IMG/VR virus record: IMGVR_UViG_3300032011_000026
Location: 1-42,652 of that record
Strand: one strand, 5' to 3'
From: a virus
Length of the DNA stretch: 42,652 nucleotides
Shown: piece after piece, positions 220 through 33,856 of the stretch
Numbering within the stretch: position 1 is the stretch's first letter
Layout: each line of letters begins with the position of its first letter
Notes under the pieces: model-generated
What the model saw: only the letters and a program-made list of their open reading frames with translations
Database searches by the model: none
What the model was told of the DNA's origin: nothing
Made by a program: the position numbers and the translations under genes

Positions 220-3200
220 ATGGGCAGTATCGCTGATGACGTTGCAGCTGCCAAGGCTAGCTTTAGTCCTAACCTTGCTAGCGCTAAACAAGATGCAGCT
301 ATAACCATAGCTGAAGCAAAATCCTCTTTATTACAAGAATCTGTACCTAGTCCCCTATCTCAGCACCTTCAAAGACAGAGATTCTCCGATATTGCAATTA
401 AGGCACGTAAAGAGTTTCTTGAAAGTCTTCCTGACCCAAAAAGGGTTATTAAAACAGAGAATAATATCCAGTTTCTTGCTGACGGTACATTCAATCTAAT
501 TAGTGCTACAGGGGAAATTTTACGTAATATAAGTAAGAAAGAGCTTCCGGATCTATTACGTATTGAAGAAGGGCGACTTAAAGATCTAGAAAAGCAAGAA
601 CGGCTTGGGATGAAAGCAACCCCTTTGACTGGATTAGGCGCTGTTGGGGTTGATGTTACAGGAAAGATAATTGGTGGAGCAGCTGAAATAGGTTCAGACA
701 TTACTCAGATAGGAACTCCTGCCCAAACTCTTACCGAAGAAGTTGATAGGTATAATCAATCTTTTGCTCATGAACGGTCTAAGGCGACTATATCTGAGTC
801 GATGCGTTTAGATAAAGAACCTCCTCCTAATCTTATTTCTAAAGAAGAGCTAGCCAAATACCAAAAAGTAAAGAAAGCAATGAGAGAGGACGCTCCACTT
901 TCTGCTGCTGACACAGAATATGTAAATACATCTGAAAAATTTAATACTATTGCTGGATTAGAATCCAAAGTCCATAGATCTTCAAAAACATACGATAAAA
1001 TTGAAGAAATATCAAAGGATATACAATCTCATATCCCCACCAAACACGCAGATGATATAGCTGTATCTTTGGCATATAAACGAGTTGCTAAAGAAGAAGG
1101 AATTCCTGCGGCTTTATGGAGGACATTAACCCAAGATTGGCAACATTTAGTTCAACAAGGTTTTGAAAGTATTCCATATATGATTGCTTTTACAGCTGGG
1201 GGCCCTATAACCCAAGCTGGTGTTTTGTATACTTTAGCAGTATCTAAAGCTAGAGAAATTACGACTACTTTTATGAAAGAGCATGATCGGGATCCGGATA
1301 CTAATGAACGCATGCGTATTGAATTTTTTGCAGGTGCTTCTACTGTAGCTGAAAAATTTGGTGATATGGCTGCTGTTAGGGCTATACCATTTGCTAAATT
1401 TGGTAGAGCTACTGGTATATTAAAACAAATAACTGATACATCTTCAGACGCTGTTAAAAAAGCTATTAGTAAAACTAGCTTTACAAGTAAAGTAGGTAAA
1501 GGACTGGGTAATACTGCATTAGCTCTTGGTGGTGAAGGAGTATCAGGAGGTTTAACTGCAACTTTTGATCAATTAGCTGCAGCAGGTAAAATAACAGACC
1601 CAGCTCAAATAGGATTTGATGCACTAGCTGAGGCTGTAGGTACTGTCGGCGGTCTGGGAGGCATGGTTGCTGGTAAAGCTCTTTATAACACCGCTAAATT
1701 ACCTTTTACGCCCTCCAGAGAGGAACGAAGGATACAGGAGGAGTTAGCTTATTTAGATAAAGCAATAGCTTCTGAAAAGCCAATTAAAGTTAAAGACACT
1801 GGTCAAGGTCAACCAATTCAAGATGAAATAGACACATTAAACGAAGGTCTTGAAAATATTAAAGATCCAGAACAACGAAAGATAAAATTAGAACAAATTA
1901 GACAGAATCTTTCTAAAGCAGGAAAAGACGATTCTGAGGCAGAGGCCATACTTGAAGAATACATAGCAGGAGATACCAAAAGACGGGATGAACTTACTGC
2001 TGCTTTAGAAAAGGTTTTACCTAAAGAAGTATTTGAAAAACGAAAAGCTGCTATATTAGCTGAACAAAAAGAAAGACAAGAGTCTAAAGCTAAAAAGAAA
2101 CTCTTAAAAACTAAAGAGGGTAAAGAAGCACGTATAGCTGAGATTGATAAAGAAATAGAAGCAGTTAGAGCTAAAGAAGGATTCATTGATGCTGAAGCAA
2201 TAAGAAAATTAGAAGAGGAAAAACAAGGGTTAACTGAAGGATTAGATTCATTTGCTACTAAAATAAAACGAACATTTGTCGGGGACGTAGATCCTAGATT
2301 TGAGGACCCTCAAGAACCGGTAGACGATAGAACATACACTCCACTAGAAGATGCAGAATTCAATAAGTTAGTAAAATCTATAGATGTTGAGAAACTTACA
2401 GATCCTGCCACTGATCCTGCAGAATTAGATGAAGCTCTTAATAAAATAGCTGAGATTCATAAGTATAAAGAATTAACAGATTCCCAAGATCAAATATTAA
2501 GTAAAATTAAAGATGAGCTTGCTGAGGTAGATCCTAGATTTAAAGAGGGTCCTTTAACTAGTATTAAAGGGGTAGTTAATGCAACAGAGGAACAGTTAAA
2601 AAAACAACTTAGAATTGCTAAAAAGAATAAGAAAACTGAAGATATAAAACTTATTAATGCTGAGCTTAAAAGAAAAGTCAAACAAGCTGAACTTAAGAAG
2701 ATAGAGAATCAAAAAACAATGGGAGAAGTTCACTCTCAGGTAGTAGATGGTCCTGGGACTAGATGGAAAGGAATACATACATACTATGATGAAATAGTAA
2801 AGACGGTAGCTGAAATTAAAGACAAAGTAATAGCAGAAGACGCAGTTATTAACATAATACAAAGAATGAGTACCCATGTAGGTAATCTCAAAAGAAAACA
2901 GGAAGCATTTACTGCTGCTTATAATAAACCTACGTTAAAGAAAGGTATTCGTGTTGTAAGAGGAACAGCTGGCGAAGGACGAGTAATGAAGTACACAGAA
3001 GAAGTTATGTCTGTTAAAGCCTTTAGAGCTGCACGTAAAAAGAATGAGTATGTCACTGCTATTTTTAAAGAAAAGAAAAAAGGATTTGGGTACACATCAG
3101 AAGGATTAATTAAAAAAGTTGGGCTTGAAGTAGAATATGGTAACGAATTTCTAACTGTTGTTGAGGGATTTAGAGAGACCTCTTTTAGCCGAGCAGCAGC

Positions 3201-6200
3201 GGAGCTGGATGCGAGGCGTAAAGCATTAAAAGAAAAACAAGCAAAAGCTGCCAAAGTTAGATTTAAATTAAAAAAAGCTCTTATTCTTAACAAGAAGACT
3301 CAAGATAGTCTTGATGCATTATTTAAAACTAAATCTAATAAAGAACTGCAGAAGTACATAATTGAAAAAAGAGAAGAAATAAAACAACTTAAAAATATTA
3401 GTGAGAAAGCACAGGAAGAAGCAGTACTTGCATATGCAGTCTTAGCATTTAATGCGCGTACACCAGAGAAAAAGAAGAAGAAAGAGAAAGAGAGCAAGCC
3501 TAAACCAGGTACTGCTTTTTCTAATGAAAAAGTATGGCCAATAAAAAGACTTAAAAAGAGTATCGCTACATTACAAGGACAGATAGATAAGGCTACAAAT
3601 CCTAAAGCTATATGGCAAAAGAACATTGATAGTATGACTGCCGAACTTGAACGGCGCGGGGTTGATGTAAAAGGTGAAGCTTCCATTACTAAAAAGCTTT
3701 TACTTGAAGCTAAAAAAACATTTGATGCATTTACTGGCATAATTGAGGAATTAAATAATAAAAAAGTTGGGGTTATAGATAGTGATAAAACACAAGCTTT
3801 AGCTCAAGCAAGCTCGACAAGTTTAAATCCTACAATTGTATTAAATATTAAAGCCATTGTAGAAGATTTTCAAAATGACATGGCGTATCTCGATGGAAAA
3901 GGTGAAGGTATCCATGCAAATACTTCCAGACAAAAAGCAGAAGTATTTAAAAATGTTGATGTACCCGCATTTAAAAAATTCATTAGAGACAATGGCGGTA
4001 TAGCTGCATATATTAATTTTATTTATCAGCATGAAAAATCACATATCATTAATAAAGATGGTGCGAAATATCCAAAAAAGAAAGACGGAACAACAGATAT
4101 TATGCATGCAGATTCTATAGCTATTGAAAGATCTGCTAATGCATACGCATTTGAAAAAATAGGTTTTAAAGCAGCAGAAACTACCAAGTCAGAATCAAAA
4201 ACAAGATTTGGGAAAGTTACTTATTGGAAAGGAAAATGGACTGTAAAAGATATACAAAAGAATTCAAATAAGATTTTTATCTTTGGAGATAACTTATTAA
4301 AAAAAGGAAAATTAGGGCAAGCAATTATTAGAGAATTAATGAATGCTTTTGGTATTCCAACTAAGAAAGCGCCTTCTACTACTACAGACAGTTATTTTAC
4401 AGATGATGAGTTAGAAGATAACAAACTATATATTAACGCCGCATTTCTAAAAATTGAAACAGGTAAAGATATATTTTTACCTCAAGCAGGCTTAGGAACT
4501 GGACTGGCTAAATTAGCAGAAAAAGCGCCTGAAACATTAAAATACATACAGAGTATTCTTAGTTATATGGAGGAAAATTCAGAACTACCTCCATATGTAG
4601 AAAGAAAAGCTAAATTAGAGGTAATACAAAACTACGCGAAAAGAATGATTACAGAGTTCATTCCTAAAACCGCGAGGGAAAAACACTTAAAGAAAGAGCT
4701 ACTTAAAGCCAAAGTAGCTACACAATTTATTGGGGCAGGAAAACAACATTCATCCACAGATGTTTATAGAGAAATATACGACAGAATAGGACTAGCTAAT
4801 ACAGGTGAATACACGTCTAAAGATACTATTTTTATAGCATCTAATGGCAACCGCTATGGCAGAGTTATACCTGTTGGTACAAATGGAAAATTACGAGGAG
4901 TCTATACGAATGTAGATCTCGCAATAGAAGCAGGCGCCACTATTATTATGGATACGGCGGGTCATTTAGCTGACTCTAACTACAATGTAGGGGAAATGGA
5001 GTTAGCTGAATACTTAAAAAAGAAAGAATATGTGAGGCAGGGTAAAACAGGTGTTTGGAAAAAACAACCTGCTAAAGGAGAACAAGGAACTAAAACACTT
5101 ACTGAAGCTGATATAAAAATTTTAAGAGAACATAAATGGCAACCTTTTGACCCCGGACCGGATGAAGTTCCTACTGCTTTATTTAGTGACGCCGAAATTG
5201 AAAGTTACATAAAAGATCCTAGTCAAATCCAAAGAGACATAACATCTTTAACGCCATTAGCTTCACTTGAACCAGATTGGGAGAAACGAAGATTACAGAA
5301 GATAAAGAATGACACACTTGCAGTGGATATCGATAAAGCTAATGCCAAAATAGATGTATTAAAATCGCTATCTGTAATGAAGGAAGAGAAGACTCCGCCA
5401 ACTGAAGTTGAGCACTATAAAGGTTCTTCTAAAGAATTAGTATTTAGTACAATTAAAGAACTAATTGAAGGACTTAGTAAGTCATCTGCCAAAAAAGCTA
5501 AATGGATATCTACATGGTTTGGCCCCATAGCTTATGAGTATTCAGGAGGAAACGAAATAATTAATCATCCTGCACAGGAAATGCCTGAAAAATTTGCAAA
5601 GATTGCTAGGGGTTTAGAGGGAAAATTAGGGTACCCTGAAGGATACTTTAATAGTGCACTAATGAATGTATTTCCTAAAGAGGTAGGAATTGGTAAACAT
5701 GCCGATGACGAAGAAATTTATGGTGCAGATGATCAAGAACAAACTATAGGAGCAGTAGCTACTGTTAGTTTAGGTGGTACATCAGCAGTTAAAATAACGA
5801 GTAATGACGGGAAAAAACAGTGGAATCTTAAGATAGAAGACGGCGATGTATACATCATGCCTGGGGGAAACTTCCAAAGAAAGCATAAGCATCAGGTAGG
5901 TAAATCATCATCTCCGCGTATTAGCATGACATTTAGGCATGTGCCTAAAAATAGAATAACAGAACAACAAGATCCCATAGAACACCCGGATGCTAAAGTA
6001 TTAAATGCTGCTAAAAACGTAACACTCGGTAACGTTTTAGAGTTACTAAAATCCTTAACTCACAAACTAAAAGATAGTGATGAACGGATTCATGTTTCTG
6101 ATGAATATAAAAAAGCTTATGAAAATGTGCTTATAAAATTTACTACTTTAGTGGAGAAAAAAGTTGAAAAAGAATCAAATGCAAGTCTTATGTTCGGAAT

Positions 6201-9200
6201 TACTGAAATGGAAGAACAGAAAGCCCCAGAAGGTAATGAAAATTGGAACTACGAAGTACTACCAGCACTGGACGTTGTTCGAGTGGCATGGAGGGTTGTT
6301 TGGAAAGAACTTGCAAAAAGAAAAAAATTACAAGACAAAAAAACGAACTTTAAAGGACTTAAAGCAGAAGATATTATACCTGATGGCTTTATTGAATCAC
6401 TTAGCGAAGATTACGGTCCAACTAAAGAGGCACCTACAGAAGATAAAACACAATACGGTAAACTTACACCAGAAATAGTAAAAGGATTTAACTCCGCCCA
6501 AGACGCTGTTGAATGGTTAATTGATAATACCGACAATCCATTATATAGGAGATTTGCTCAACGAATTAAAGATAGCATTCCTAATATTCCTATTAGATTT
6601 ATTGATAAAGATTACATAACCGCGGAGGATGGTAGTAGAGCAAGAGGTGTAGCAACTCGTAGATATGAAGATCTAGAAGACGGTTTATTCACCACCAGCA
6701 CAGGTATCTCCTTAGCTAGATCAGGAGTAAACGAATCAACATTACTACACGAACTTTTTCATGTAGCTGTAGCAGTTCTTTTTTCAGGACCAATAACTCT
6801 TAAACAAAAAGCCGCTAAACAACAATTACTCGATATAGCTACACATTTAAAGACTGTTATCGATTCTAACGAGATTAAGGGGATGCAGTTAAACCCGGAT
6901 CAAATAACTCTGCTAGATCTTATGAGAGGTCTAGAGGTTCCCGGAGATGAAAAAACTAAAAGCAACGCTGCAGTAGAAGAATTAATAACATATGCTTTAA
7001 CTAACCAACAAGCTAGGGCGCTGATGATGTCGCTTCCTGCTCTTGAGACTGGATACAAGTCTTTATGGTCAGAATTTGTAATAGCTATTCGCAAATTAAT
7101 GGGAATGGAAGATACCGAAAAGTATCCTCCGACACTATTTGATCAGATAGTCGAAAGCACAGATATACTAATAGAAAAGCCTGAAGCCAAGAAAACTAAA
7201 CAAAAACCAATTAGCAGACATTTACCTAAGGAATCCCAAAGTAAACAGGCATTCTATGTTTTATACCCGGAAATTCTTACAAAAGATGGGATCTTAGCAG
7301 AGGATAGTGTACTAGCTAAGCATTTTGAAATATTAGAATCATTAGCTACTGCATTAGGATTAAAATCCCCTGCTTTTGCGTGGAATAAAGATAAACAATC
7401 CTACTCCTATGAGAGAAAAGATATTGAGGCGGCTTTAAAAGCATTACCAGACAATAAAGATTTTTTAGAAGCAAAAATTGAGACTAGACAACTTGAAACT
7501 ACTATTACTGAAGAACAATTAAAGAAAGCTAAAACAAAACAACATGCAAGTATAGGTAAGAAAAGCGAAAAAAGCATAGCTGAACGAATAGCTGAAAACC
7601 TAGAAAATGTCTTTGGCATTTTAGGCGTATACGTTAATAAGTTAATTACTATTCGTAAGATACGAGATAAAAAAGCTCTCAATGGTATTCATACTCTCCC
7701 AGATGCTGTATTTGAGGATACTCATGCGTTTAGCGGTCTTCCAATTACAGATGCATCAGGTAAAAAACAATATAAAACTTTAGAAAGAGCTCTTATCGCT
7801 TTAGGTGTATCAGAAGAAGGTGCTGCTGAACTAGTAGAAGAATATTCAAGATATGCTAGAAAGTACGAAGCTATACGTGTAGACGGTAGAGTTTTAGATA
7901 CAGAAGGTAATCCACAAGGCAATACCGCTATTAATAAGCCGTTATCTATACTTTATAGTGAAGATCAAAATGTAACAGAATTCCCGCCTCAAATAATATT
8001 TGGAATGATGTTAGGTACCGTTACTTGGCTTCAACAAAATCCAACTAATATTAGATTTAAAAGTGATCTTGGTAGAGAAATATTTTTGTATGGAGATCAT
8101 GCTCAGCTCTCTCCTAGTGAACGAGGCCAAGTGAAGAATGTCGGGCATTCTTACACGGAAGCGGTGTCTACTGTTGGTAATAATATTATCAGTATTTTAA
8201 AGATATCAGGAAAAGATCTGGATACGGATGTTTACTATAATAATTTAAGTATAGCTTTAGGACAGCTAGCCTTGCAGGTAGAACATGGACCTCAAGAACT
8301 CACTCTTACAGACAAAACCTCGTATACACAACCAACTGTAGAATTTGAAGGAGACGAATCTAGACTTCATATAGAAGGTAAATTATGGAACTTTAAGCCT
8401 GCCAAGAAAGAAGGGCGTATTTTTAATAACGCCGATAAGAAACCGTATAAACATATTAAACTTAACCTTAAAAAAACTAGTGATGGAAAAGAAACTCCTC
8501 TTAAACTTCCTAAAGCAACTGTTGATGCTAGTAAAGAGATATTAGCAGTTATAGACGCGGATGTAGATACAGAAGGAGGTAAGCCAGCTCAAAAACCATT
8601 TCCTAAGGTTGTTGACAATATAAAGAATTCTTTAGGTGGAGTAGCTAATGAAATTAAAGATGTACTTAGTGTCCTCCAGGGAAACGATGAAAAACAACAT
8701 GTTTCATGGACGGGGACACAGTCTTTAGATATAGCAGTTAAATTAGATGAAGCAGGCGAAAAAGACGCACTTTATAAGCTTGCTGGAGTAGAGCATGTCG
8801 ATGATACTTATCATATTGTACGCCGAGAATCTATTGAAGCCTCTAATGCAGACAAAACTAACGCAATTGATGGTCTTCTAGATGCATACAATCACGAAGA
8901 CGGCAATCTACTAAAGAAGTTTTATTTTAGATATAAGCTGCAAATTCAAAACCGCATTATGATGCAGTCTTCTGGAACTATTAATCCACAAGCCAGTGGA
9001 GTTGATAGATACTATGTAAGACCTACAAAAGCTTCTGTTAAATATACCGAAAAAGATCTATGGAAATTCAAGTTATCCGTTGTCGGTAACTTTGGGTTTG
9101 AAATAGATAAAAATGACCTGACATCTGCTTTAGATGCCTTTGATTATTTAATAGCCGATGGAGATGTTTTAGAAGCTGTAAGCGCAATACAAAATATAGA

Positions 9201-12200
9201 TGAAGCAGGTCAACCAGCTAAATTAGCAAAGCTTTTATTAATTATTAAAAATAAAGAAGTCCTAGGCGAAGCGGATCACCCGTCGTCCATATTGAATGGA
9301 TTAACAGGATTAGCTCAAGGACTAACAGTAGGTAGTAATGTTACAGAAGCCGGAGAATCAGTCAAAGCAACCAAACTGGGAATACTAAAAACGGACTTTG
9401 AATCAGATGTAGTTTTAGAAATTGATGGTATATCTAGTGGATTTGCTCAAAACGCTCTTCAGTTTCCTATGTATGGGAAAGAAGGAAACGAATTACGGCG
9501 GAATCAAACAGGTACATATATTGGTCCTACAGAATCATCTACTACTCATGATCCATACAAACAAGATATTTATCAGGATGTCGGAACTAAAGTTGAGGAA
9601 TACTCTGGAGTTGATACGGCTGAATCCTTTCATCTTGGTCAAAAGAACAAAAAACCTTTTAATCGTGATCAGTATATAGCTAGAAATAATTCATTAAATG
9701 AATTGTATCCTACGCTTAAAAATGGGGATATGCGTAAACTTATTAAATACCCATTTCTTATTTTTATGTATGGTGGCGGGCCTAAGAGCATCTCTGAAGG
9801 TATTGCAGGAGATATACTATCTGAATTGTATGTACAGCTAGATTTACATCAAAGACGCTACCACAAACTTAAAACTCAAAAAGCTAAGAATGCTTATCTA
9901 AAAGAAAAGGTATTACCATTTCTGGAACATTTAAGAGTAGTAGGAGCTATTGATAACGTCGCAATATTTAGAGGGGCATTTGTAAACCCGAAAAAAGTAA
10001 AAGAAGAGCTACTTAAGGATGCAGTAGCCATTTCTCGAATATCTATTTTATTACGCCCAAGATTACAACTAGGACTGGAAAGTATTCTATTAGGTACAAA
10101 AGACGCTAGAGATGCGGCAATACAAGCAGGAGAGGTGTTACATGCTGTGTTCATGGCTCATTTCGAAAAGGCTCAAGAAGAAGCACTGATTATTCGTAAT
10201 GAAAACGGAGAAGATACTGGGCAGAGAAGACCAAATTTAACTGAAAAAGAGATTAACGAACTTATTAGAAAAGAACTAATTAGTCTATTACCTCAATACA
10301 AGGGACCTTTACAGCAAACGGATCAGTCTTTTATAGATCTGACTAAACGACAATCCTCCGAATCTGATAGTACCAGTGAAATGGTCACTATTGAGTATAA
10401 GGATCCTAAAAATAAAAGAGGAATAGGCACAGCTAGTACTACGCCGAAGCGTATGACTTTTACGTCTCCTGGCGTTAGCGCACTAATTCGTATGATCATC
10501 AATATGGATGCGGCTATATTGACTAAAACTTTAGCAGCTCACCCACATGTACTCATGCTTCATGACGCTGTAATGGGGGATCCTAATACATTAGAAGCAG
10601 CCAATACTACATATGGCAAGTGGTACGTAAAGCTTAACAGAGAATATAGTGTACTAGATTCTATTACAAAACGAATGAACGCTGTTATTGCTAAAACAGA
10701 AGCCAAGGACATAGAGAACGGTAATAATAATCTAATGGAGGCTGTAGATAGCTGGCTAATAGATAAAGCATTCATAAATCAATATGCAAAATCAAGCGAT
10801 ATAAAATCTAGAGAAGTTATTGTTCAACGTATTAATGATGTAAATAAAACCGTCCAAATAGAACGAAAAAAAGTAGAGGAGGAAATCTCTGAACGAGGAG
10901 GGAGAGTTATTTCTAGTCAATTATATATGGCTAGAAAACCTATCTTTGAAGCTACGCAAATAATCTTAGATAAAGAAAAAAATCTCCGATTAAAAATATC
11001 TAATTTAGTAGATTTAGTTTTTAAAGATGTTCCTAAAGACGTTCGAAATACGCCTTCAGAATTTGAAAAAGAAGAGCAGGCTATTAGTGAAGCATTTAGG
11101 AAAGAGATTAAAAAAGCTAAAAAAGGTAAAGGACTTTTTTATTCTTCATTACCTGACCAAAAAAGAGATAATCCTATAACAAAGTTAGTAGGAGATATCA
11201 CAAAAGAGAATATATTATCTACTTTTGCAGATATGCAAGAGCATTCCGAGAATTACTATGAAAATGATCAGGATCAAACTAGACATGCAGAAACATTACT
11301 AAGAGTACTTACTAAATTAGCTGATGGGTTGAAAGATTCCTCAGCTATTCGATTTACTCAAGAAGAGATAGACGGAATTACTCAAGGAGAATTTGATCCG
11401 GTCAGTAAGAGAGTAAGAGTATCTTTAAGTAGACAGGGTCCTTTATCTACGAATGCACAGTCTCCTCAGGAAGTATATGTGCATGAACTCGTACACGCCA
11501 TAGTTACTGTTGCATTAGATAAAAATCCTTTGTTAAGACGTAGAATAGAAAAACTATACCGACAGACTAAACAGGATTTAGCTGCTAATGACGGATACAA
11601 GATATTTTTAAATGATCCTAAGAGCAAAGACGAACAAGCAAAGAGGACTGCAAAGGAACAGTACGAATTTTTATTTACCAATCCAAAGAACGAGAAACAC
11701 AAGTTAGGTGAATTTTTAGCTTACGCTGTAACAAACAGACAACTTGTAAATTATCTATCCGGTACTAAAACTAAAATACACTACAAGTACAGAAAAGAAG
11801 AGACTCTCTTTACTAGAGCAATAGATGTATTCGAGTATTTTGTAGAACTTGCTGTAGATACTGTACTAAGAGCGTTCAATAAAAGAGGAGGTTTTGGTGC
11901 TAAAGCTAATCATGAAATGTTGGCAGTTCTCGAGGCATTAATAAATATCCAAAGTAACAATAGAAATAGACTAGAGCGGTTGCAAGATAAGCTATACAAA
12001 AATTTAGGTGATTCTGATCAATTTTTAAGAAAATTTGGTGATGAACAGGCATTAGCAATAATAGAGAGTGAACCAGCTGGTTTCCTTAAGCGCGTAGGTA
12101 GAGTTGCTGTAGGTGCCGGTTATCTTGCTATTAGTAAAAACGCCCAGACTCTGAAGACTAGGCAAATAGTATATAACGCCATGGGTGATACTTTACGCCA

Positions 12201-14646
12201 TTTAGCATTAGAGGTAGGTGAAGGAATACTTGGCAAACGACTAATCCAACAATTATTGTTCTCTAAAGTAAACGTATCTAAAGCACGTCAAGAGGCCGAA
12301 AGGTTTACTATTAAATGGTTTAACGGGATCTGGAAGTCAGTAGATGCTAGCAAACCTAAAGGAATGTCTGTAGATTTAAGAGAAAATCTAACTAATGTAA
12401 TATTTAGAACTGATTTATCCAGTCTATTAAACATGGGTCTTTCTCATGCAGAGATAGCTAGTTTTATAGGTGACAGGAGCAAAATTGATGCAAGATTAAA
12501 ATACCTTGAAAAACAAATATTAAATAAAAGACCTGCTAAGAGAAAGTACATTAACCACGCGGTGGATTATGCTAAAGAGCTTGGTGAATACATGGCTAGT
12601 GGAGATGTTGGTTTAGAAGTGGCTCATATGAATGCATTCACCATCGCAAGAAAATATTTAGCTAAACCAGAAGCCGGTGATCTGGCACTAATAGAAGCAT
12701 ACGCTACATTAACAGCCTTAAAAGCGACCAGATACGATGAAACTGCTGCTGTTAAGGAACTTGTTGATGCAGAATTTGCTGTGGATGCTACGCAGAATGG
12801 GTTTATAGATTTATTAGATAGCCATATTGAATTTGTTGACCGATCAAGAAAAGGAAATTTTGGCGGTAATCCTACACAAATGGTTAAGGGCTATATCGTA
12901 GAGAGGATAGATAACCTAACGGATATGAAAGTAGGGCTGGAGACTCAACGAAAAGATATGGAAAACGAGGGCTACCCAGAGATGTATGGATTAGGAGACA
13001 TTCCAGGACTTAAACCTGGTCAAAGAATAAACGACAAAATATTTATCGGACGAAATGCGCCTCCTATTCCTTATGTTTCTGCCATTATGTCTACGACCAA
13101 TAAACGTAATATCGGTACTACTTTAACAGAGATTTTATCAGAGAGTCCTAATTACCAAAAATCTCCTGGCGTACCTGATATGGCAAAAATAAAACAAGCG
13201 ATTCGTGATATTCATAAAGAACAGGAAAAATTGGCTTCTCGACGTAAATTAAAATTCAATAACGAATTACGATTACGCCCTGTTCTAGATGAGAAAGAAA
13301 ATGTTACTGATTATCGAGTAATCATGAACCACGTAACTCGGAAACAGTTATTAAATCCAGATTTAGAAATACAAAATGTATTCGCACATATGCAATCATC
13401 TTATATTGATCGCGTAGCTACTATTAAGAATGATAAAAGAACCATCGAGCTATTAGTATACGAACAAAAAGAAAGGCTACCATCTCACCGTGATGAGTTC
13501 ATCGATTTCTTAGACCCTGCAAATGGATTTATTGATCGTTATTACAGGCTACCTAAAGAAGTTAGAATGTATATGGATAGATTTACTAAAGACGGTAAAT
13601 TTATGGTTAGGAAAGACGCCGTTAATAAAATATTTGGGTACCAAGCAAGAGACTTGAGAAATATACCTGGGCTTAACCATCCTAGTATGGTTCATATAAA
13701 AAGGTTTGCAGGACTATTTCACTATATTCTCAGACAAATTATTGGCTATGGAAAGGATCGTATAGTCATAGCTATGCCGCAGGTATGGTTATACAACGCA
13801 TATTCTAACATAGCACAGTTAATGATGAGGAACATTCCTCTACCTTATATAATTCATAAGACTATTGAGGGATTTCATGAATACCAAGCATATCGTAACG
13901 ATACAGAAGAACGTAGAGAGCTTAAAAATACTATTAATATTAAAAATTTAGATAAAAAAAATAGTCCAGAAGCTATACAAGTAGCAGCATTAACAGTACG
14001 TATAGAGGGTAACAAGATTCATGCTATGAGTGCTGCAGGGTTGAATTCGCTTATTGTGGAGGATCTGAATGATGCTTCATTGGATGGATATATCAATCGT
14101 GGACGGAGATATTTGAAAACAAACAAGTGGTATAATGCGTCAGATAGGTTATCTACTACAGGGCATTCTGTAGCGGCTAATATTTTTATGACTAGAAGTA
14201 CAGGACCCTATCAGGTTATGCGTCAGATCGTGCAAATGACGGACTTCTTGGGTAGGTATGTGATGATGCAGCATGCTATGGAAATACGTGGGCTAGATTT
14301 TAATACAGCTATGCATGAAGCATTAGACGCATTTGTATTATTTGATGAAGCATTAGCTCCTGCTTTAGAGTCTTTAGAATCTCTTGGTGCTACTGTATTT
14401 TTATCGTACTTTTTACGTAATCAAAGATCAGCACGTCAAGTAGCTATGAGAAATCCTACTGGAGTAGCTATATCTGGAGCATTTCAATATTCGACCGGTA
14501 TACCAACATTAGGAAATTTAGACAGTGCATTTATAGCTGGGGATATAATGCCTACTACGATGTATTTAGATGAGCTATTTGACGAGGCTAATAACCCAAC
14601 AGGAGCAGATCTGCTAAACCAGGCATTAGGGGACATATTTAGTTAG
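220..14646 (+). CDS. Giant N4-like virion RNA polymerase with AlkB, zincin and other accessory domains
   Basis: A 4808-residue protein; N4 vRNAP is about 3500. T7-family polymerase motifs are visible. A probable motif T has R2912 followed by INPQ. Motif A is DGISSG with D3069. Motif B is R3172-x3-K3176-x7-Y3184-G. Motif C is HDA with D3449. The gaps D to K (107) and Y to D (265) are close to those of N4 vRNAP (111 and 273) and unlike T7. Upstream are a lysine/glutamate-rich coiled region (to about 1200), HEKSH (1271-1275, possible third ligand E1303), an FGDN...GIPTK domain (from about 1350), an AlkB-type dioxygenase (about 1700-1910: H1827-A-D1829, H1889 or H1891, RISMTFR at 1900-1906) and HELFH (2177-2181). 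After the polymerase come HELVH (3755-3759) and a C-terminal part of about 900 residues, probably for packaging as in N4. Expected to be injected with DNA and to transcribe early genes from hairpin promoters. The accessory activities are inferred from motifs only. Its stop shares four bases with the convergent minus-strand gene. Confidence 0.93.
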   Translation: MGSIADDVAAAKASFSPNLASAKQDAAITIAEAKSSLLQESVPSPLSQHLQRQRFSDIAIKARKEFLESLPDPKRVIKTENNIQFLADGTFNLISATGEILRNISKKELPDLLRIEEGRLKDLEKQERLGMKATPLTGLGAVGVDVTGKIIGGAAEIGSDITQIGTPAQTLTEEVDRYNQSFAHERSKATISESMRLDKEPPPNLISKEELAKYQKVKKAMREDAPLSAADTEYVNTSEKFNTIAGLESKVHRSSKTYDKIEEISKDIQSHIPTKHADDIAVSLAYKRVAKEEGIPAALWRTLTQDWQHLVQQGFESIPYMIAFTAGGPITQAGVLYTLAVSKAREITTTFMKEHDRDPDTNERMRIEFFAGASTVAEKFGDMAAVRAIPFAKFGRATGILKQITDTSSDAVKKAISKTSFTSKVGKGLGNTALALGGEGVSGGLTATFDQLAAAGKITDPAQIGFDALAEAVGTVGGLGGMVAGKALYNTAKLPFTPSREERRIQEELAYLDKAIASEKPIKVKDTGQGQPIQDEIDTLNEGLENIKDPEQRKIKLEQIRQNLSKAGKDDSEAEAILEEYIAGDTKRRDELTAALEKVLPKEVFEKRKAAILAEQKERQESKAKKKLLKTKEGKEARIAEIDKEIEAVRAKEGFIDAEAIRKLEEEKQGLTEGLDSFATKIKRTFVGDVDPRFEDPQEPVDDRTYTPLEDAEFNKLVKSIDVEKLTDPATDPAELDEALNKIAEIHKYKELTDSQDQILSKIKDELAEVDPRFKEGPLTSIKGVVNATEEQLKKQLRIAKKNKKTEDIKLINAELKRKVKQAELKKIENQKTMGEVHSQVVDGPGTRWKGIHTYYDEIVKTVAEIKDKVIAEDAVINIIQRMSTHVGNLKRKQEAFTAAYNKPTLKKGIRVVRGTAGEGRVMKYTEEVMSVKAFRAARKKNEYVTAIFKEKKKGFGYTSEGLIKKVGLEVEYGNEFLTVVEGFRETSFSRAAAELDARRKALKEKQAKAAKVRFKLKKALILNKKTQDSLDALFKTKSNKELQKYIIEKREEIKQLKNISEKAQEEAVLAYAVLAFNARTPEKKKKKEKESKPKPGTAFSNEKVWPIKRLKKSIATLQGQIDKATNPKAIWQKNIDSMTAELERRGVDVKGEASITKKLLLEAKKTFDAFTGIIEELNNKKVGVIDSDKTQALAQASSTSLNPTIVLNIKAIVEDFQNDMAYLDGKGEGIHANTSRQKAEVFKNVDVPAFKKFIRDNGGIAAYINFIYQHEKSHIINKDGAKYPKKKDGTTDIMHADSIAIERSANAYAFEKIGFKAAETTKSESKTRFGKVTYWKGKWTVKDIQKNSNKIFIFGDNLLKKGKLGQAIIRELMNAFGIPTKKAPSTTTDSYFTDDELEDNKLYINAAFLKIETGKDIFLPQAGLGTGLAKLAEKAPETLKYIQSILSYMEENSELPPYVERKAKLEVIQNYAKRMITEFIPKTAREKHLKKELLKAKVATQFIGAGKQHSSTDVYREIYDRIGLANTGEYTSKDTIFIASNGNRYGRVIPVGTNGKLRGVYTNVDLAIEAGATIIMDTAGHLADSNYNVGEMELAEYLKKKEYVRQGKTGVWKKQPAKGEQGTKTLTEADIKILREHKWQPFDPGPDEVPTALFSDAEIESYIKDPSQIQRDITSLTPLASLEPDWEKRRLQKIKNDTLAVDIDKANAKIDVLKSLSVMKEEKTPPTEVEHYKGSSKELVFSTIKELIEGLSKSSAKKAKWISTWFGPIAYEYSGGNEIINHPAQEMPEKFAKIARGLEGKLGYPEGYFNSALMNVFPKEVGIGKHADDEEIYGADDQEQTIGAVATVSLGGTSAVKITSNDGKKQWNLKIEDGDVYIMPGGNFQRKHKHQVGKSSSPRISMTFRHVPKNRITEQQDPIEHPDAKVLNAAKNVTLGNVLELLKSLTHKLKDSDERIHVSDEYKKAYENVLIKFTTLVEKKVEKESNASLMFGITEMEEQKAPEGNENWNYEVLPALDVVRVAWRVVWKELAKRKKLQDKKTNFKGLKAEDIIPDGFIESLSEDYGPTKEAPTEDKTQYGKLTPEIVKGFNSAQDAVEWLIDNTDNPLYRRFAQRIKDSIPNIPIRFIDKDYITAEDGSRARGVATRRYEDLEDGLFTTSTGISLARSGVNESTLLHELFHVAVAVLFSGPITLKQKAAKQQLLDIATHLKTVIDSNEIKGMQLNPDQITLLDLMRGLEVPGDEKTKSNAAVEELITYALTNQQARALMMSLPALETGYKSLWSEFVIAIRKLMGMEDTEKYPPTLFDQIVESTDILIEKPEAKKTKQKPISRHLPKESQSKQAFYVLYPEILTKDGILAEDSVLAKHFEILESLATALGLKSPAFAWNKDKQSYSYERKDIEAALKALPDNKDFLEAKIETRQLETTITEEQLKKAKTKQHASIGKKSEKSIAERIAENLENVFGILGVYVNKLITIRKIRDKKALNGIHTLPDAVFEDTHAFSGLPITDASGKKQYKTLERALIALGVSEEGAAELVEEYSRYARKYEAIRVDGRVLDTEGNPQGNTAINKPLSILYSEDQNVTEFPPQIIFGMMLGTVTWLQQNPTNIRFKSDLGREIFLYGDHAQLSPSERGQVKNVGHSYTEAVSTVGNNIISILKISGKDLDTDVYYNNLSIALGQLALQVEHGPQELTLTDKTSYTQPTVEFEGDESRLHIEGKLWNFKPAKKEGRIFNNADKKPYKHIKLNLKKTSDGKETPLKLPKATVDASKEILAVIDADVDTEGGKPAQKPFPKVVDNIKNSLGGVANEIKDVLSVLQGNDEKQHVSWTGTQSLDIAVKLDEAGEKDALYKLAGVEHVDDTYHIVRRESIEASNADKTNAIDGLLDAYNHEDGNLLKKFYFRYKLQIQNRIMMQSSGTINPQASGVDRYYVRPTKASVKYTEKDLWKFKLSVVGNFGFEIDKNDLTSALDAFDYLIADGDVLEAVSAIQNIDEAGQPAKLAKLLLIIKNKEVLGEADHPSSILNGLTGLAQGLTVGSNVTEAGESVKATKLGILKTDFESDVVLEIDGISSGFAQNALQFPMYGKEGNELRRNQTGTYIGPTESSTTHDPYKQDIYQDVGTKVEEYSGVDTAESFHLGQKNKKPFNRDQYIARNNSLNELYPTLKNGDMRKLIKYPFLIFMYGGGPKSISEGIAGDILSELYVQLDLHQRRYHKLKTQKAKNAYLKEKVLPFLEHLRVVGAIDNVAIFRGAFVNPKKVKEELLKDAVAISRISILLRPRLQLGLESILLGTKDARDAAIQAGEVLHAVFMAHFEKAQEEALIIRNENGEDTGQRRPNLTEKEINELIRKELISLLPQYKGPLQQTDQSFIDLTKRQSSESDSTSEMVTIEYKDPKNKRGIGTASTTPKRMTFTSPGVSALIRMIINMDAAILTKTLAAHPHVLMLHDAVMGDPNTLEAANTTYGKWYVKLNREYSVLDSITKRMNAVIAKTEAKDIENGNNNLMEAVDSWLIDKAFINQYAKSSDIKSREVIVQRINDVNKTVQIERKKVEEEISERGGRVISSQLYMARKPIFEATQIILDKEKNLRLKISNLVDLVFKDVPKDVRNTPSEFEKEEQAISEAFRKEIKKAKKGKGLFYSSLPDQKRDNPITKLVGDITKENILSTFADMQEHSENYYENDQDQTRHAETLLRVLTKLADGLKDSSAIRFTQEEIDGITQGEFDPVSKRVRVSLSRQGPLSTNAQSPQEVYVHELVHAIVTVALDKNPLLRRRIEKLYRQTKQDLAANDGYKIFLNDPKSKDEQAKRTAKEQYEFLFTNPKNEKHKLGEFLAYAVTNRQLVNYLSGTKTKIHYKYRKEETLFTRAIDVFEYFVELAVDTVLRAFNKRGGFGAKANHEMLAVLEALINIQSNNRNRLERLQDKLYKNLGDSDQFLRKFGDEQALAIIESEPAGFLKRVGRVAVGAGYLAISKNAQTLKTRQIVYNAMGDTLRHLALEVGEGILGKRLIQQLLFSKVNVSKARQEAERFTIKWFNGIWKSVDASKPKGMSVDLRENLTNVIFRTDLSSLLNMGLSHAEIASFIGDRSKIDARLKYLEKQILNKRPAKRKYINHAVDYAKELGEYMASGDVGLEVAHMNAFTIARKYLAKPEAGDLALIEAYATLTALKATRYDETAAVKELVDAEFAVDATQNGFIDLLDSHIEFVDRSRKGNFGGNPTQMVKGYIVERIDNLTDMKVGLETQRKDMENEGYPEMYGLGDIPGLKPGQRINDKIFIGRNAPPIPYVSAIMSTTNKRNIGTTLTEILSESPNYQKSPGVPDMAKIKQAIRDIHKEQEKLASRRKLKFNNELRLRPVLDEKENVTDYRVIMNHVTRKQLLNPDLEIQNVFAHMQSSYIDRVATIKNDKRTIELLVYEQKERLPSHRDEFIDFLDPANGFIDRYYRLPKEVRMYMDRFTKDGKFMVRKDAVNKIFGYQARDLRNIPGLNHPSMVHIKRFAGLFHYILRQIIGYGKDRIVIAMPQVWLYNAYSNIAQLMMRNIPLPYIIHKTIEGFHEYQAYRNDTEERRELKNTINIKNLDKKNSPEAIQVAALTVRIEGNKIHAMSAAGLNSLIVEDLNDASLDGYINRGRRYLKTNKWYNASDRLSTTGHSVAANIFMTRSTGPYQVMRQIVQMTDFLGRYVMMQHAMEIRGLDFNTAMHEALDAFVLFDEALAPALESLESLGATVFLSYFLRNQRSARQVAMRNPTGVAISGAFQYSTGIPTLGNLDSAFIAGDIMPTTMYLDELFDEANNPTGADLLNQALGDIFS

Positions 14647-21596: not shown

Positions 21597-21613
21597 TTTT
21601 TTCCCTTTAGTTG

Positions 21614-21688
21614 TGTCCTTGGATGGAATCGAACCATCGCCCCACCGTTCTAACGAAGCAGTTGCTCTACCAACTGAGCTACAAGGAC
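21614..21688 (-). tRNA. tRNA, anticodon probably GUU (Asn), atypical anticodon arm
   Basis: A 75-base cloverleaf on the minus strand: acceptor GTCCTTG/CAAGGAC, D arm GCTC-AGTTGGTA-GAGC, T arm GATGG-TTCGATT-CCATC and A as discriminator. No CCA is encoded. The anticodon arm is two bases longer than standard. Pairing CTGCT with AACGG (one C-A mismatch, one G-T) leaves the loop TCGTTAG with GTT in the anticodon position, but base 33 would then be C rather than T. A register with ACTGC/ACGGT gives a nine-base loop. The anticodon is therefore uncertain. Confidence 0.85.
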
Positions 21689-32110: not shown

Positions 32111-33856
32111 TTATGACAACATATAACTGCTGTTCTTAATATCACAATTTAAGTCATCACTGAATTTAGTTAACACTAAAGTGTTGTTTCCAGTAATTTG
32201 TCGTAATATATCCTGAAGAATATCACTTTTGGCTATTTCAGCCATAATTCTCCTATAAGTCGATGTCACTTTTGATAAGTGATTAGGATTAAACACGAAA
32301 CAATCATGAACATGACTTAGTTGGAAATCACAACGTCTAATCATTTCTCTAGCCACATAGCCATCAATTGAATGAATAACATTAGGACAAAGAGACCTAT
32401 AATTGTCAGATTTAGTCTGATGGAGCCACCTCAAAGGAATATCCCCTAATTCTGGATCTGAGTATACGCCGTTAGTACCCTCTACAACGGGTATATACAC
32501 CGTATGATTATCAGGCATTACCCACGTATGGTGATCAGCATTAGGATTCCAACACTTGTTAATAACATCCATTACGTCTTCTGCTCCTGGGAGCAATCCA
32601 GTAATGACATTGTAAAATACACCTAGCTCTATTTGTGAAAGTAAAGCTTTCGGCGTAGCTCTAGAATTATAAAAATGAGTCATAACAACCTCCTTAACTA
32701 TCTTTCTAGATATAGGCTTAGGCAACTGCGCGTTCATTAAATCAGCTATTTCCGTATACAAATCGTATCTAATAGCTGGATCCATCATATTAACAAATCT
32801 AGCAGTTTTCTTACACCCAGATACAGCTGCCATTACCTGAATGCCTGAGGACGTCGCATCTAGACTCATTACATACCCTGTAGGTTTACATTCTTCTGTA
32901 TCTTTCAGGGCTCTAACGGCTTTACGTCCAAGAATAGGCTCATCCCAGATAACATCATCGAAATTTTCTCGATTAGCCCAGTCATAACGTTCTTTCCAAG
33001 TCAGTTTATTCTTACCTGCATGATTAGCTATCGCTATACGTAGGTTTGGAAGTCCTTGGCAAGTAATTAATTCTTTATTATGCAATGATAACAAAGCTTT
33101 ACCGTATTCATTACTCTGAAGATTTAAATCATAACCGGAAGAATAACTTCTTCCTCTAGAATCATATCTCCAGACAAAATGAAACGGTATACCGATATAC
33201 TCACCAATAACCCTTAAAAACTTCTTTTTATTCATAGCTCTATTTGTATCTCTTTCGAGTTTAAAGGTAATGGGATCTATCTCCCATGGAATAGACTGAA
33301 GTTTATTAACAACATCATAGGCTAAAGGCTTATCATGTTTAGTAAATCTACTGCCAAGTACTAGATGTTTGGTTTCAAATAACCATCCTCCACCATGATT
33401 ATTAGTCCATGGTACGGGTAGTGTTTTCATAGGAGGTAAATACTGTAACTTGGCTAGTTTTCTTTTGGTTCTTTTGTCCAATTGAAAACTAGGATGTACA
33501 TACCACTCACCATCTATTGTTAAGAAAGTGTATATGCCAACATCTTTACACTCTTTAACCAATAGAATTCCCCATTCGAATGCTCGTGCGGAGTTTTCAA
33601 TACCTGCAATATGCCCTAACTGCGTAGCAATAGCTTGGATAGGTTTAGCAACCTTATCCTTAAGAAGGATAGAAAACATTTTAATGTAAATTTCTTTATT
33701 AGATTTCTTGCCCCTGTTAAGGTCTGTAATGGTTTCTAATATATTTAGTTCCATTTGGAACGGAAGCTGTCCCTGAATTGCTTCTAATACAATTTCATCT
33801 GTAATTCTCGTAGACCATGAAGTTTCCAGAGCATATTGCTCTATCGTTGTATTCAT
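32111..33856 (-). CDS. Single-subunit T7-type RNA polymerase in one ORF (RNAPII equivalent)
   Basis: 581 residues against 883 in T7. Motifs: D232-x2-G-R236 (YDSRGRSY), motif A LDATSSGI (D333), motif B R384-x3-K388-x7-Y396 (Asn follows Y instead of Gly), PNVIHSIDG (about 491-499) and motif C HVHDCF (D518). All catalytic parts are present in one chain, whereas N4 splits this enzyme into RNAP1 and RNAP2. It probably transcribes middle genes. The N-terminal region is much shorter than in T7, so it may need a helper to melt DNA, as N4 RNAPII needs gp2; no such gene is recognised here. A terminator lies only 28 bases before its ATG. Confidence 0.92.
   Translation of the reverse strand: MNTTIEQYALETSWSTRITDEIVLEAIQGQLPFQMELNILETITDLNRGKKSNKEIYIKMFSILLKDKVAKPIQAIATQLGHIAGIENSARAFEWGILLVKECKDVGIYTFLTIDGEWYVHPSFQLDKRTKRKLAKLQYLPPMKTLPVPWTNNHGGGWLFETKHLVLGSRFTKHDKPLAYDVVNKLQSIPWEIDPITFKLERDTNRAMNKKKFLRVIGEYIGIPFHFVWRYDSRGRSYSSGYDLNLQSNEYGKALLSLHNKELITCQGLPNLRIAIANHAGKNKLTWKERYDWANRENFDDVIWDEPILGRKAVRALKDTEECKPTGYVMSLDATSSGIQVMAAVSGCKKTARFVNMMDPAIRYDLYTEIADLMNAQLPKPISRKIVKEVVMTHFYNSRATPKALLSQIELGVFYNVITGLLPGAEDVMDVINKCWNPNADHHTWVMPDNHTVYIPVVEGTNGVYSDPELGDIPLRWLHQTKSDNYRSLCPNVIHSIDGYVAREMIRRCDFQLSHVHDCFVFNPNHLSKVTSTYRRIMAEIAKSDILQDILRQITGNNTLVLTKFSDDLNCDIKNSSYMLS

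Follow-up and report, generated by a model that had tools for sequence, protein, structure and literature searches.

The N4-type polymerase gene and its surroundings

The DNA analysed here, called the window, is an IMG/VR record: a linear metagenome contig of 42,652 bases. Near its start lies one very long gene, whose features in window coordinates are as follows.

220..14646, + strand: giant N4-type virion RNA polymerase (vRNAP) ORF, 4808 aa, one open frame with an ATG start
220..3663, + strand: N-terminal region, residues 1-1148, with homologues in several clade members
3664..4167, + strand: first zincin-like cassette, residues 1149-1316, HEKSH at 1271
4198..4623, + strand: DUF7831 cassette, residues 1327-1468 (Pfam PF25176, E 5.5e-32, over 1337-1445)
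4624..5079, + strand: conserved "CR" domain, residues 1469-1620, defined by its own family alignment
5077..5988, + strand: AlkB cassette, residues 1620-1923, with the predicted domain at 1768-1906 (Pfam PF13532, E 5.7e-13)
6547..7209, + strand: second predicted zincin, residues 2110-2330, HELFH at 2177
8887..10644, + strand: polymerase core, residues 2890-3475, with R2912, D3069, K3176, Y3184 and D3449
10645..14643, + strand: C-terminal region with the third predicted zincin, residues 3476-4808, HELVH at 3755

Judged by its sequence, the ORF is an N4-type vRNAP, because it matched the PHROG 2206 profile of virion RNA polymerases (E 5.7e-180, best stretch 3672-4475) and kept the catalytic residues. 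A phmmer search of the PDB with the whole protein gave no match at E <= 0.1. In an alignment of seven sequences (the window protein, N4 gp50 and five other vRNAPs), R2912, D3069, R3172, K3176 and D3449 were invariant, and the position of Y3184 held Y in six of the seven and F in LIT1. The whole-length MAFFT alignment was unreliable before the core and was used for the core only. The original prediction had given D3069, K3176, Y3184 and D3449 an N4-like spacing. The positions proved correct, and the intervals of 107, 8 and 265 residues are near those of 111, 8 and 273 between the N4 equivalents D1556, K1667, Y1675 and D1948. It had also put the protein at more than 1000 residues longer than N4 vRNAP; the excess is 1308 (4808 against 3500 residues). 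The other vRNAPs measured 3398 (LIT1), 3068 (BUCT194), 3240 (Vibrio phage phi 1), 3062 (MS02) and 3264 (pYD6-A).

Ten further ORFs of the window were scanned, and all but one had a match. The PHROGs matches were N4-like: SSB, Sak4, primase (E 2.3e-276), exonuclease, Dda-like helicase, DNA polymerase, N4-like RNA polymerase and large terminase. The set from SSB to RNA polymerase lies downstream of the vRNAP and is convergent with it, and the terminase stands at the far end. The placement of the vRNAP gene relative to the SSB, Sak4, primase, exonuclease and DNA polymerase genes is shared with N4. The region upstream of the vRNAP lies beyond the window; in a near relative (locus L008) four ORFs on the same strand precede the vRNAP, and PHROGs gave no function for them.

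Some other features of these contigs were also observed. A single 581-aa ORF at 32111-33856 (- strand) matched phrog_2166 (N4-like RNA polymerase) with residues 3-212 and phrog_2051 (RNA polymerase) with residues 268-512. Two RNA polymerase subunits may be fused in it, since the RNA polymerase of phage pSb-1 is annotated as two genes. The sole tRNA of the window is a tRNA-Asn (gtt) at 21613-21688 (- strand). A 3563-aa vRNAP, 41% identical to that of the window over the core, was found at 4898-15589 of L123, a contig of a Hyphomicrobiales MAG. This contig is the only hint of a host, and it may be a phage contig that was binned there.

A clade of long vRNAPs

A scan with the core alignment yielded 80 loci. 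In an 82-row tree, built in quick mode and with long branches flagged, the window fell in an uncultured clade of 22 rows (SH-aLRT 100, stem 1.3). None of the six reference phage rows was in this clade. Among its distinct complete ORFs, 13 of 17 exceeded 3820 aa, the upper length of reference vRNAPs given in the relevant part of PMC10654107, against 3 of 45 outside the clade; L015 and L029 in this set are near-identical. The longest chain of the clade, that of L018, has 5959 residues.

The Pfam scan covered the pre-core pieces of 13 clade relatives and, for L013, L015, L018 and L020, the post-core pieces as well; it also took in the ORFs upstream of the L017 and L024 vRNAPs and two pre-core pieces from outside the clade, those of L051 and L055. 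Several kinds of domain were above the cut-offs: AlkB in L010, a YAcAr SLOG domain in L017, an SLT transglycosylase in L018, L020 and L021, LysM in L022 and L027, and an SF1 helicase, which follows the core in L018 and L020 and sits on the upstream ORF in L017. The helicase was also found after the core in L021 and L026 by phmmer. L018 carries DUF7831 and CR after its core. The pre-core pieces of six of the 13 relatives (L013, L015, L016, L026, L031 and L032) had no Pfam match above the cut-off, so that no recognised domain accounts for a large part of the added length.

Zincin-like segments

The window protein has HExxH motifs at 1271, 2177 and 3755. This number exceeds chance: 0.11 were expected from composition, and none of 1000 shuffles reached three. 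Their support differs. The first segment aligned locally with L017 (Z 8.6) and L078 (Z 10.2) and showed no likeness to L018 (Z 0.6), and its structure model had a pLDDT of about 40-70. Of the three zincin assignments, this one, tentatively read from local alignments, is the weakest.

The second segment matched the N4-type peptidase, which stands after the core in N4, in a profile comparison (98.5%, E 2.9e-15), and was less close to the third zincin of its own chain (78.9% over 26 columns). The H, E and H of its motif and a downstream E were invariant in the family alignment. Its model placed strands at 142-183 before the HExxH helix, which is the order of zincins, with a mean pLDDT of 59 over the whole model, and its best VIA fold matches were zincins (Z up to 6.2, 141 residues aligned, rmsd 4.2). 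We predict a zincin-like fold for it with moderate confidence. For both structure models, Foldseek found no match in the PDB at E <= 0.001.

The family of the third segment matched the N4-type peptidase family at 97.4%, and an HExxH after the core (after motif A) was present in 68 of 69 vRNAPs, counted after duplicates and 3'-open rows had been dropped. On this motif and profile evidence the third zincin is ordinary for the vRNAP family. As a separate observation, the vRNAP of Vibrio phage phi 1 (L003) has two HExxH after its core, at residues 1942 and 2177, and the segment of the first weakly matched the second zincin of the window by phmmer.

AlkB, DUF7831 and CR

On the whole window protein, Pfam reported two domains above its curated cut-offs, DUF7831 and AlkB. 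The AlkB segment had a profile match to ALKBH3 (8jnr, E 0.0087), in which the HxD, the distal H and the C-terminal arginines were aligned. It is 83% identical to the copy in L010, and these two were the only vRNAPs found with AlkB in our pattern-limited scans. The original prediction had proposed several unrelated enzyme-like domains on both sides of the core. This stood for the pre-core part, where AlkB, DUF7831 and two HExxH motifs (1271 and 2177) lie. On the other side we found only the family-typical zincin at 3755.

The DUF7831 of the window is 62% identical to that of L018. FGDN, GQA and TK are invariant across 20 DUF7831 sequences, and this part of the structure model had a pLDDT of mostly 93-97. 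Together with the second zincin, at moderate confidence, it bears out that folded domains are predicted outside the core. The DUF7831 model matched the human C6orf130 macro domain (2lgr) weakly (VIA Z 4.8, 102 residues aligned, rmsd 3.8). This fold match was the only sign of a macro domain identity, and a profile comparison with one macro domain gave 0.1%. The macro domain search with PF01661 hit one of 15 records, the Hyphomicrobiales MAG, and nothing in the window. The reading of CR as a SLOG domain was not supported and was dropped: the comparison with the YAcAr SLOG region of L017 gave 0.2%, and the CR profile had no match in the PDB. Comparison of DUF7831 and CR as one family was also negative.

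Scans by short peptide patterns, which miss distant copies, found DUF7831 at 34 loci, in short and very long ORFs, and CR at 19 loci, many of them in long ORFs. Giant phage proteins (L091, L101, L126, L130, L140 and others) share DUF7831 and/or CR with the window protein, and the two adjoin in the giant non-vRNAP proteins of L130, L140 and L141. Unlike the window protein, the non-vRNAP long ORFs of the CR set showed no vRNAP core; many of the giant ORFs are cut by locus ends. The long DUF7831 ORF of L101 also has DUF4326 and, below the cut-off, DprA-like and M78-like matches, and that of L091 has a DprA-like match (PHROGs). In a fold search of viral models, DUF7831 proteins occurred in giant viruses and other phages, with long ones in the uncultured phages cr272_1, cr130_1 and cr131_1. 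At L099, the ORF at 2834-6073 contains DUF7831 and also matches family B DNA polymerase and exonuclease; ORFs of L100 and L119 were judged to be of the same kind by their position and length. Because of the neighbouring domains and the weak fold match, DUF7831 with CR might act on a nucleotide-type substrate, a weak suggestion given that the macro and SLOG sequence tests were negative.

Presence, absence and exchange of cassettes

When residues 1-2400 of the window protein were used as the query, a single relative was found, L008, which lies on the same contig as L009. Its vRNAP has 4182 residues and a core 92% identical to that of the window. Missing from it are window residues 1149-1316, 1327-1468 and 1620-1923, each an in-frame block on its own (168, 142 and 304 residues); they correspond to the zincin-like, DUF7831 and AlkB cassettes. 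Smaller gaps measured 5, 6 and 13, and the rest of the alignment was mostly 77-99% identical per 100 residues. CR is kept in L008 and is only about two thirds identical. The extra length of the window vRNAP lies mainly before the core, in the zincin-like segment, DUF7831, CR, AlkB and the second zincin.

We compared synonymous distances, with intervals from 1000 codon bootstraps. Between the window and L008, dS was 0.46 [0.30-0.67] in CR against 0.18 [0.14-0.23] in the core. Between the window and L010, it was 0.27 [0.16-0.41] in AlkB against 0.93 [0.76-1.15] in the core. Judged by these distances, which are unlike those of the backbone, AlkB and CR have been exchanged between lineages and have a history of their own. 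The dS to L010 was also low in residues 2330-2560 (0.52 [0.37-0.73]), and the limits of an exchanged tract may therefore differ from those of a domain; dS was not low in the second zincin (1.07 [0.74-1.65]).

The dN/dS ratio was 0.36 [0.19-0.66] for AlkB, 0.37 [0.22-0.60] for DUF7831 and 0.32-0.47 for CR, with upper bounds below 0.8 for all three. These domains are under purifying selection. The stretch 1926-2110, compared with L008, was near neutral (0.89 [0.51-1.74]).

Chains split into adjacent genes

Nine loci, picked mostly for a short vRNAP ORF, were inspected for upstream ORFs. At six of them (L010, L017, L024, L041, L077 and L078) the chain looks split before the core and an adjacent upstream ORF holds the missing part, and at L046, L050 and L033 this inspection found no split. 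In L010 the split falls between CR and AlkB and the ORFs overlap by 11 bases. The N-terminal region stands on a separate adjacent ORF in L017, which is split after the helicase, and in L024, which is split directly at stop and start. In L041 and L077 the upstream ORF bears the N-terminal part. Two contigs end within the upstream ORF, so that only the CR part is visible in L010 and only the zincin-like segment in L078.

It is possible that splits seen in a single case arose through sequencing errors. The split of L024 recurs in L025, from another metagenome, which differs at 3 of 21,842 positions. The vRNAP of pSb-1 has also been reported as split, and in the passage concerned the authors of PMC10654107 suspect miscalling or read-through; pSb-1 is not counted among the six. 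With six split relatives, one chain is not universal.

Discussion

Polyvalent proteins combine disparate domains and a zincin in one chain (Iyer 2017, PMC5512222), as the window protein does. With AlkB, DUF7831, zincins and an RNA polymerase all predicted in it, this chain would carry several unrelated activities. This agrees with the original view of a vRNAP grown into a polyvalent protein, which is also backed by the relatives that bear different cassettes. The idea has a precedent: the available text of Iyer 2017 (PMC5512222) already files N4-like vRNAPs as polyvalent and lists zincin, ART, lysozyme and PBECR among their domains; whether such proteins process themselves or act in the host is discussed there as well. 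AlkB, 2-oxoglutarate, SLOG and macrodomain have no occurrence in the main text of that paper, and in the open literature we found no paper that treats DUF7831 together with a virion RNA polymerase. N4 gp50 (Schitoviridae) shares the catalytic residues and the post-core zincin with the window protein. It differs in being shorter and in that AlkB, DUF7831, CR and zincin-type segments stand before the core in the window; a relative of N4's own peptidase is pre-core here, and the peptidase itself is post-core in N4. Cassette exchange between near relatives and gene splits occur in the window clade and were not found in the available text of Iyer 2017 (PMC5512222). New here are a near relative without three cassettes, each its own in-frame block; the exchange of AlkB and CR; an uncultured clade whose polymerase chains reach 5959 residues and in some members bear SF1 helicase, lytic transglycosylase (SLT) or LysM; and six loci where the pre-core chain appears to be divided between neighbouring genes.

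We consider it fairly probable that the window encodes an N4-type vRNAP enlarged by exchangeable cassettes, mainly between its N-terminal region and the core. By likeness to N4, whose vRNAP uses its N-terminal 998 aa for injection and is packaged unprocessed according to the available text of Iyer 2017 (PMC5512222), the N-terminal region would be the injection part. The chain would most likely be packaged in the virion and enter the cell with the DNA under this region, and the core, with its motifs intact, would transcribe the early genes. If packaging and injection hold, the carried domains would be active ahead of all phage gene expression. The substrate of AlkB would be alkylated or methylated nucleic acid, and DUF7831 with CR might act on its suggested nucleotide-type substrate. 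The zincins would probably cut the chain and free the carried parts, as Iyer 2017 (PMC5512222) proposed for such proteins. Injection of the whole chain and a role against host defences, both raised in the original prediction, are inferred, as is cleavage.

For AlkB, repair of DNA on entry or of early RNA is as plausible a role as opposing host defences. A housekeeping cargo of this kind, with AlkB and its companion domains serving to repair the entering phage DNA and the early RNA or to make them ready (for example an alkylated single-stranded template), is a serious but somewhat doubtful alternative. The AlkB iron site and C-terminal arginines align with those of ALKBH3, and the helicase and transglycosylase cassettes of the relatives would fit entry and template handling. 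However, the occurrence of AlkB in just two vRNAPs, in pattern-limited scans, is more in keeping with a niche role than with a general requirement, and the passage on AlkB in a jumbo-phage review (PMC7824862), which treats it apart from vRNAPs, argues that sporadic phage AlkB resets methyl marks rather than repairs. A polyprotein, cut by its zincins in the particle or on assembly so that several separate proteins are delivered, also has a real, though less than even, chance of being the case. Two conserved zincins and a zincin-like segment in one chain are consistent with it, relatives already have the chain as two separately encoded polypeptides, and self-processing has been proposed in the available text of Iyer 2017 (PMC5512222); but, by the same source, N4 vRNAP is packaged unprocessed despite its peptidase.

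The added domains are unlikely to be passengers or structural filler that is inactive in the cell. Near-neutral stretches such as 1926-2110 and the length without a recognised domain would suit filler, whereas the dN/dS bounds of AlkB, DUF7831 and CR and the invariant positions of DUF7831 argue against it. Still less credible, and in our view very improbable, is that assembly joined co-occurring strains into a chimeric 4808-residue frame. As a linear metagenome contig with a mosaic cassette region, the window would allow it, but no stop interrupts the 14.4 kb of the frame at any block edge or between them, the dS of AlkB from L010 speaks against a direct join with the L010 contig, and the long complete ORFs of the clade come from contigs of different metagenomes.

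The picture of an N4-type vRNAP with exchangeable cassettes may be carried further, to a reading that we regard as quite possible without putting it at an even chance. The pre-core stretch would be a loading bay, with a second bay after the core, where domains are swapped faster than the backbone evolves; the N-terminal part could work as a separate protein, and the vRNAP would be a general delivery vehicle whose injection part can act in trans. The six apparent natural splits make it testable whether the N-terminal injection part must share a chain with the polymerase. Natural pairs with and without an insertion show where a vRNAP accepts new domains, which extends the idea of polyvalent vRNAPs. 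A carried AlkB would be at work on nucleic acid ahead of all phage transcription, and the swapped domains suggest a protein that can take on varied cargo and deliver it into bacteria.
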